Source of the DNA: Flavobacterium sp. ALJ2
GTDB taxonomy: Bacteria; Bacteroidota; Bacteroidia; Flavobacteriales; Flavobacteriaceae
Length of the DNA: 64,000 nucleotides
Reading direction: 5' to 3'
Assembly: GCF_015594725.1 (NCBI RefSeq)
Contig: NZ_JADNRC010000006.1
Coordinates: 1-64,000, forward strand
Shown: piece by piece, positions 13,487-18,525 of the stretch
Layout of the letters: each line of letters begins with the position of its first letter
How positions within the stretch are numbered: position 1 is the stretch's first letter
Program-made: the position numbers and the translations under genes
Notes under the pieces: generated by a model
Databases searched by the model: none
Seen by the model: the letters and a program-made list of their open reading frames with translations, nothing else
Told to the model about the DNA's origin: nothing

Positions 13487-13516
13487 TTTGATTACAAGGG
13501 TTTTTTGCTATATTTG
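13487..13516 (+). promoter_or_regulatory. Consensus promoter upstream of the 13.5-13.9 kb unit
   Basis: TTTG (13487-13490), an 18-base spacer and a perfect TATATTTG (13509-13516). Predicted transcript start is near 13522, so the structured segment 13558-13633 would be close to the 5' end of the RNA. A small hairpin (CCTT/AAGG, about 13485-13499) followed by six T overlaps the -33 box. Confidence 0.7.
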
Positions 13517-13518
13517 CT

Positions 13519-13541
13519 TTTCCTAAATTACAGAATCATGA
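13519..13541 (+). repeat. Direct repeat copy 1 (start-site repeat)
   Basis: This 23-base segment runs from TTTCCTAAA to CAGAATCATGA and contains the ATG at 13538. It matches 13640-13663 at 20 of 23 positions with one gap. Confidence 0.7.
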
Positions 13542-13557
13542 CATCTAAAAAACTTTT

Positions 13558-13633
13558 GCCCGTGTGGTATGGTGGCGGTATTGGAAACAACCGTAACACT
13601 TCTGTAAGTGTAGGACACCTTAGCTACACGGGT
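13558..13633 (+). ncRNA. Predicted structured RNA with multi-helix junction
   Basis: Nested helices fold the whole segment. P1 pairs 13558-13567 with 13624-13633 (ten pairs, two of them G-U wobbles plus one at the tip). P1b pairs 13571-13574 with 13616-13619 (GGTG/CACC). P2 pairs CGG..TTG (13576-13583) with CAACCG (13588-13593), closed by a GAAA tetraloop. P3 pairs ACACTT (13596-13601) with AAGTGT (13606-13611), closed by CTGT. A GNRA loop and a compact junction are typical of selected RNA. I cannot assign it to a named family. Confidence 0.5.
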
Positions 13634-13639
13634 TTTATA

Positions 13640-13663
13640 TTTCCTAAAATTGCAGAGTTATGA
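13640..13663 (+). repeat. Direct repeat copy 2 (start-site repeat)
   Basis: Second copy of the 13519-13541 repeat. It supplies the sequence before the start of the 77-residue gene and includes its ATG at 13660. Confidence 0.7.
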
Positions 13664-13893
13664 GTACAAACACCCTTTCAGAAGAAGCCAAAACAAGGCT
13701 TATGAATTTTTTCAGCCATGTAATTGAGCCAAAAGATATGGCTAAGGTAATAAGGCAAGCAAATTATCTTCTTACTATGAGTGCTATTAAAGAAAATCAA
13801 GACCTTCAGAACGAAATAATCAACTTTGAAGACAGCTTTTATTGGCTCAATGAATTAGCCGAAGCTTTAAATCCTTATTTGAGTGTAAAATAA
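13660..13893 (+). CDS. Small helical protein, function unknown
   Basis: A 77-residue protein predicted to be all helical, with segments EEAKTRLMNFFSHVI, DMAKVIRQANYLLTM and EDSFYWLNELAEALNPYL. No signal peptide, membrane helix or metal-binding motif is visible, and I do not recognise the family. It follows a well-formed promoter and the structured leader and has its own strong terminator, so it is clearly an expressed unit. Its ATG overlaps the stop of the 41-codon frame. Confidence 0.65.
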   Translation: MSTNTLSEEAKTRLMNFFSHVIEPKDMAKVIRQANYLLTMSAIKENQDLQNEIINFEDSFYWLNELAEALNPYLSVK

Positions 13894-13915
13894 GTTTTAA
13901 TTAGCATATTTTAAG

Positions 13916-13947
13916 ACCCCTCGATTTGTATAAATCGAGGGGTTTTT
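13916..13947 (+). terminator. Strong rho-independent terminator
   Basis: Perfect 12-base arms beginning ACCCCTCGATTT around the loop GTAT, followed by five T. It closes the 77-residue gene's transcript. Confidence 0.9.
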
Positions 13948-18338: not shown

Positions 18339-18420
18339 TTACCTTGATTATGTTATCAAATGTATTTAATTATGATCAAAGTGTTTTTAAATTCGAGAGA
18401 ATATTTTGAAAATTTTAGTC

Positions 18421-18525
18421 ACTAGCCCTGATGGGAACGGCATCCTTTTGTGGCGGTGTTCGCCATAAAAGATATAATAGACAGCAGGTCCCGATAGCTA
18501 TCGGGATAGTTCCTTATCCTGCTTA
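18421..18525. repeat. Interspersed repeat with two stable hairpins
   Basis: First hairpin: 18445-18455 pairs with 18461-18471 (11 pairs, centred on TGGCG/CGCCA). Second: a perfect 18-base palindrome at 18489-18506 centred on GATAGCTATC, inside outer arms AGCAGG (18483-18488) and CCTGCT (18518-18523). The wording recalls a repeat common between flavobacterial genes (CCCTGAT..GGCATCCTTTTGTGG). Confidence 0.65.

Follow-up and report, generated by a model that had tools for sequence, protein, structure and literature searches.

A c4-2 RNA whose hairpin loop covaries with two flanking repeats: a candidate cis-acting leader switch in Flavobacterium

Introduction

Several kinds of RNA control rest on a short sequence that can pair with more than one partner or with a translation start. 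In translational attenuators and bistable riboswitch platforms, such as leaders of the erm type, mutually exclusive pairings within the leader set access to the ribosome-binding site. Antisense or kissing-loop control of plasmid copy number and of type I toxins works through a short loop that pairs with a translation start. Type III toxin-antitoxin systems of the ToxIN type encode a ToxN-like endoribonuclease preceded by tandem RNA repeats, and the internal guide sequence of group I introns is a single guide that pairs with both sides of the element.

Here, we analyze a locus in a 64,000-nucleotide stretch of DNA from Flavobacterium sp. ALJ2 (contig NZ_JADNRC010000006.1; hereafter the window), in which two near-identical repeats flank an RNA of the c4-2 family and a small gene follows. 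As in attenuators and riboswitch platforms, exclusive leader pairings would decide whether the ribosome-binding site is free, but here the competing partners are near-identical copies of each other, one of them lies where the transcript is predicted to begin, and the code is replaced from locus to locus. The locus shares with kissing-loop control the use of a short loop against a translation start and of system-specific codes, yet its loop lies in the same transcript as the target, and a second copy of the target is found at the 5′ end. As in a type III toxin-antitoxin system, a promoter is followed by a structured RNA whose end resembles a terminator and then by a small gene, on one transcript; unlike such a system, the locus has a single RNA unit without tandem repeats, no recognizable toxin in the libraries searched, and an RNA complementary to the start of the gene. 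The likeness to a group I intron is confined to one guide pairing with both flanks of the element, as the locus is far too short, has no catalytic core, and gives no evidence of splicing. Judged by its sequence, we would place the locus among the competing-structure leader switches, as a variant of them.

Layout of the locus and identity of the RNA

The unit at the window locus runs in the order promoter, target T, RNA, second target T′, gene, and terminator:

13509–13516, forward strand: −7 promoter element of the Bacteroidetes type (TATATTTG), recognized by sequence; transcription start predicted a few bases downstream, at or just before T
13519–13541: 5′ copy of the repeat, TTTCCTAAATTACAGAATCATGA, seen in the sequence
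13521–13535, forward strand: T, the bipartite target in the 5′ repeat, made of UCCUA (13521–13525) and UUACAGAA (13528–13535); from complementarity to A and covariation
13558–13635, forward strand: c4-2 RNA core (RF02944), with P1, P2, the GAAA hairpin P3, the hairpin P4, and a U-rich run after P1; from the Rfam score and the covariation of all helices
13600–13607, forward strand: A, the P4 loop UUCUGUAA, complementary to T and T′; from pairing, covariation, and duplex energies
13611–13615, forward strand: second antisense segment, UAGGA, complementary to UCCUA of both repeats; from bipartite duplexes in the tested copies and CG/UG/UA changes at the pairs
13640–13663: 3′ copy of the repeat, TTTCCTAAAATTGCAGAGTTATGA, seen in the sequence
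13642–13657, forward strand: T′ in the 3′ repeat, made of UCCUA (13642–13646) and UUGCAGAG (13650–13657) and ending 2 nt before the start codon; from pairing with A and covariation
13660–13893, forward strand: gene for a 77-amino-acid (aa) acidic, helical protein (three predicted helices); relatives in the genus
13913–13946, forward strand: intrinsic terminator 3′ of the gene, a 15-pair stem followed by a T run

The two repeats are present as an earlier note on this DNA had described them, and the fold that it had drawn between them—P1, a GGTG/CACC helix, a GAAA hairpin, and a CTGT hairpin—matches the c4-2 family, to which 13558–13635 belongs with 75 bits, above the gathering score of 41 (E value of 4.4e-15, model positions 1 to 79). 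P1 pairs 13558–13567 with 13624–13633, and the GGTG/CACC helix pairs 13571–13574 with 13616–13619; one of the other hairpins is capped by GAAA, and the other is an ACAC/GTGT stem with CTGT as the central loop bases. The minimum free energy of the window RNA is −38.5 kcal/mol (z score of −2.7). The core is a full-length member of the family, with the same P1-P4 layout and the conserved GGAAAC and UAGGA positions. However, the Rfam model ends at P1 and holds nested pairs only, without T, T′, or the pairing of the P4 loop, and Rfam types the family (clan CL00128) as “Gene; sRNA” rather than as cis-regulatory. The Rfam search at the site matched no intron family, and RF02943, which had been guessed to be a c4-1 relative, turned out to be Bacteroidales-2. 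c4-2 was reportedly first described by Weinberg in 2017; a literature search whose reach did not include that description found no paper on the function of c4-2. The core is thus an already known Rfam family lacking an assigned role, and the original description may already mention part of the pairing of T and T′ with the loop that is absent from the Rfam model.

A covariance search, which the earlier note had put forward as a check of the fold, found c4-2 copies in 28 of 150 Flavobacterium genomes at an E value of ≤0.001 (26 of 150 over the Rfam cutoff), with one to eight copies per genome and four in the genome of the window; the RNA is thus not a product of chance. Compensatory change in the core is strong: 97.4% of the cells at its pairs are paired, covariation is 0.439, and two-sided changes occur at 19 of 25 pairs, against at most 41% paired cells in slid controls. 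The 3′ end of the copies is U rich, with 6.4 T per 10 nt compared to a background of 3.4. In 99 of the 108 copies from the genus, an open reading frame (ORF) of at least 60 aa starts on the same strand within about 45 nt of the RNA. Of 81 main-group copies, 68 have a −7 box that ends exactly 3 to 4 nt upstream of TCCTA; given the known geometry of Bacteroidetes promoters, the transcript is therefore predicted to begin with T itself. In the copies examined, T′ falls inside the region of ribosome binding and translation start.

The P4 loop covaries with both repeats

What the earlier note had overlooked is that the loop of the P4 hairpin is complementary to both flanking repeats. In the window, T:A comprises 8 exact base pairs in the loop plus the 5 pairs of UCCUA:UAGGA (duplex of −14.5 kcal/mol), and A:T′ comprises 7 base pairs, including one G-U, plus the same 5 (−15.5 kcal/mol). 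Our sample consisted of 108 c4-2 copies from genomes of the genus, 77 of which were nonredundant and served to compare complement lengths. Among these 77, the longest exact T:A complement averages 7.65 nt compared to 5.86 nt (standard deviation [SD] of 0.11) when flanks are permuted between loci (z score of 16.9), and the longest exact A:T′ complement averages 7.03 nt compared to 5.34 nt (SD of 0.10; z score of 17.4). The copies contain about 40 distinct A words. Of the 99 copies whose downstream gene is intact, 87 have exact matches of at least 6 nt on both sides; of the 9 lacking such a gene, 2 do.

An alignment of 28 diverse copies, calculated by MAFFT without reference to the loop-repeat pairing, provided a column-wise view. 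T:A columns are 87.2% paired with a covariation of 0.506, compared to 0.173 (SD of 0.020) after shuffling and at most 0.169 when slid by 1 to 3 columns; A:T′ columns are 84.4% paired with a covariation of 0.589, compared to 0.203 (SD of 0.021) and at most 0.171, respectively. The pairs of UAGGA with UCCUA of T and T′ also show CG/UG/UA changes in this alignment, and bipartite duplexes of loop plus UAGGA are predicted in the copies tested. Over 40 copies, the mean duplex energies are −15.3 kcal/mol for T:A and −14.3 kcal/mol for A:T′, that is, similar enough for the two states to be near-isoenergetic, compared to −5.3 kcal/mol for P4 alone; exchanging loci leaves only −9.1 kcal/mol (T:A) and −8.2 kcal/mol (A:T′). 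As read from these alignments, T, A, and T′ change together from locus to locus.

The same holds for a held-out set that played no part in forming the idea, namely, c4-2 copies that later turned up in other genera and one other family of the order. Each of the 10 distinct held-out loci that have a downstream ORF shows matches of ≥6 nt on both sides, compared to a mean of 1.5 and a maximum of 5 of 10 with dinucleotide-shuffled flanks. Their downstream proteins (about 50 to 109 aa; pI of 4.6 to 5.3 in those analyzed) are small and acidic and have no recognizable relation to the 77-aa protein of the window, indicating that the architecture goes with the RNA rather than with a particular gene. In a divergent Flavobacterium subgroup, the 3′ side of the last hairpin serves as the antisense segment, and T′ consists of the start codon plus codons 2 and 3; here, residue 2 of the protein is Q, T, or L and varies in step with the RNA. 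As a separate observation, the differing, acidic proteins of 89 to 109 aa downstream at L238, L240, L241, L246, L252, and L260 frequently end in a motif resembling L..LAE.L.PY.ELE.L. They may be strongly diverged members of a single family, of which hhalign gave no demonstration: profile comparison among the protein groups yielded no reliable homology, just a weak resemblance of the C-terminal helix.

Codes are replaced between near-identical loci

Two comparisons capture the replacement of a code. Genome G071 has two loci, 8 kb apart, that are nearly the same in promoter, RNA core, and coding sequence yet carry different T, A, and T′ segments. Between Flavobacterium sp. KMS and F. shii (L156 and L157), the promoter stretch is identical and most of the coding sequence is shared, with T, A, and T′ switched from the CUACGAC to the UCUUCAC type; CTTTCAGA is an example of a code from another c4-2 locus. 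Such joint replacement of three separate segments between near-identical genes suggests selection for locus-specific codes, the purpose of which is probably to avoid cross talk among paralogues. Codes shared within a genome are fewer than expected, although not significantly so (9 compared to 14.4; 75 of 1,000 shuffles).

The 77-aa protein and its paralogues

Of the 150 Flavobacterium genomes, 27 encode relatives of the 77-aa protein, and 305 relatives were counted in genome contigs. The protein has no Pfam match at E values up to 1 and no NCBIfam, phage, or plasmid match; its best PHROG match is insignificant (E value of 0.066), and a close paralogue and relatives have no PADLOC match. An AlphaFold model consists of three helices (pLDDT of 81, pTM of 0.56), for which the structure search returned no convincing PDB match (best Foldseek E value of 3.8) and VIA-align gave Z scores of 5.5 and below, which are uninformative for helices. 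A type III toxin-antitoxin assignment was rejected on the single RNA unit and the missing Pfam and PADLOC matches.

Some paralogues lack c4-2. One set of loci (L116 to L123, L158, L170, L174, L175, L178, L181, L205, and L234) keeps T at the 5′ end together with a degenerate RNA and, immediately upstream of the start codon, an imperfect complement of T; this complement scores 7.2 against T of its own class and 5.0 against the other class, as if T itself were to mask the start. Other paralogues without c4-2 (L131, L132, L137, L142, L145, L146, L148, L150, and L153) are preceded by a divergently oriented gene for a small XRE-type regulator (HTH_3, PF01381; E value of 3.6e-15), with palindromes in between that vary by locus. 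The protein family thus appears under at least two kinds of locus-specific control. In genomes G071, G006, G083, G117, G122, G144, and others, a c4-2-controlled copy of the gene and a copy that lacks c4-2 and is preceded by XRE or palindromes lie about 19 to 31 kb apart, apparently a conserved arrangement. A Flavo-1 RNA (RF01705, 61.7 bits) is located at 18420–18495 of the window, and Flavo-1 matches are also found near three paralogues without c4-2 (L118, L120, and L133).

Discussion

Based on these sequence comparisons, we consider it fairly probable, if well short of certain, that the 77-aa gene has 13519–13663 as its 5′ leader and that this leader acts in cis as an RNA switch. The transcript would start with T, and the c4-2 RNA would fold next, exposing the antisense loop A beside UAGGA. 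A could then choose between two partners, T at the 5′ end and T′ in the ribosome-binding and start-codon region, but could never pair with both. Pairing of A with T′ would mask the start and lower translation, whereas T:A pairing would sequester the loop and leave the start free; it is the sign of these effects, as well as the trigger and the action in cis, that we infer, while the complementarity, the three-way covariation, the near-equal duplex energies, and the position of T and T′ relative to the predicted 5′ end and the start codon come directly from the data. The near identity of T and T′ would give the two states similar energies and could let them exchange by strand displacement, so that a small influence on the conserved core—a ligand, a protein, or the speed of transcription—could tip the balance. 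The downstream proteins, which have no assigned function, point to no particular ligand. Translation initiation in Bacteroidota uses signals other than Shine-Dalgarno pairing (PMC9723704).

Two properties expected of a cis-regulatory leader are found: the RNA stands consistently before a gene on the same strand, and an alternative pairing covers the translation start. Moreover, a search for two code words as targets in four genomes (G000, which is that of the window, G083, G122, and G684) and a leader-pattern search in G000 both found target-like leaders outside c4-2 loci at chance level, which favors action in cis. Against a pure cis switch, the different codes on near-identical neighboring genes are not explained by cis action by itself, P1 and the U-rich run could terminate transcription and so give a free small RNA, and the full bipartite pairing would melt P4.

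The first two of these points lead to the strongest alternative, which we hold to be unlikely: that transcription mostly terminates at P1 and the U-rich tail, and that the free c4-2 RNA binds T′ (and T) through loop A in trans, on mRNAs of its own or of sister loci, with diverse codes keeping paralogues apart. The richness in T after P1 and the Rfam type of the family are in line with such an RNA, as are the several differently coded loci per genome, including the pair with all three segments changed at a distance of 8 kb, and a few RNAs that lack T and T′ of their own and lie downstream of a complete unit. Within one molecule, however, A would encounter T first; the two code words do not occur above chance as leader-like targets elsewhere in the four genomes; the matches are usually lost in RNAs lacking a gene of their own, where only 2 of 9 keep both; and the deficit of repeated codes within genomes falls short of significance. 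The solitary RNAs (G122:C22:9650, G083:C3:5858, and G684:C11:350538), each directly 3′ of a complete c4-2 unit, are possibly trans RNAs or relics. Cis and trans modes could also coexist.

The earlier note had offered two origins for the locus. Its suggestion that a duplicated leader evolved into a cis-regulatory RNA comes close to the evidence, as the repeats are partners of the loop and covary with it; its other suggestion, of an RNA-bearing insertion whose excision would restore the gene, is mostly unsupported, since the repeats are kept in concert instead of decaying like target-site duplications, and promoter, RNA, and gene travel together at many loci. A promoter-T-ATG arrangement without the RNA is almost absent among members, and the sole exception seen is L155, in the same genome as the window (G000:C4, about 241.0 to 241.3 kb, minus strand), where a C20-type promoter is fused to a single T-like leader, TTCTGAAATTACTACATTATG, and the gene, without c4-2 RNA. 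This gene carries a frameshift near its end, and the locus looks like a relic of a collapse by T/T′ recombination; it demonstrates that collapse between the repeats can occur, though only as a relic. A search for empty sites by means of the neighboring gene gave alignments that stop at that neighboring gene.

These observations bear on two further readings. It is very improbable, in our view, that A acts as a guide for cutting and joining, aligning T and T′ in the manner of a group I intron (or of a DNA recombination guide) so that c4-2 is removed and promoter, T, and gene are rejoined. A single guide pairing with both flanks does follow the logic of an internal guide sequence, and L155 has the promoter, a single T-like leader, and the gene with the RNA gone, but the core of about 80 nt contains no known catalytic core, the segment sits in an untranslated leader whose removal is not needed for making the protein, and the RNA is retained at about 100 intact loci; L155, for its part, is one frameshifted copy of a kind that ordinary recombination between direct repeats can produce. 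Slightly less credible still is a mobile insertion with target-site duplications. Direct repeats of 20 to 24 nt on both flanks and copies at many genome positions would fit, yet the repeats of an old insertion decay independently, whereas here both stay complementary to the internal loop and change with it, which led us to reject this reading; furthermore, promoter, RNA, and small gene form one unit, in other genera as well, and the 77-aa protein has no phage or plasmid matches. Least plausible of all is a leader-peptide operon, with the repeats as its two promoter/start regions and the complementarity arising from coding or promoter constraints: a 41-codon frame does overlap the start of the window gene by ATGA, but the conservation along this frame that the earlier note had named as evidence against its own reading is not found, as the frame reaches the gene start in just 9 of 108 copies, a suitable ATG is lacking in 51, and whole subgroups that retain T have lost the 5′ ATG, which refutes the leader peptide as a general explanation.

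For c4-2, an orphan Rfam family, the three-way covariation supplies a concrete candidate mechanism while widening its boundaries to T and T′. In Bacteroidota, c4-2 would provide a naturally occurring RNA switch, and its loci point to small acidic proteins without known relatives that are kept under RNA switches or XRE-type regulators. More tentatively, we speculate that c4-2 may represent a widespread family of RNA switches with a locus-specific code in three parts—5′ end, loop, and start codon—whose cassettes are exchanged among near-identical genes, leaving each paralogue responsive solely to its own RNA. These would be natural orthogonal riboregulators, and the code cassettes could possibly also serve as a self/non-self code between loci or strains. 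The about 40 natural code words would, in addition, be a ready-made set for engineered regulators.
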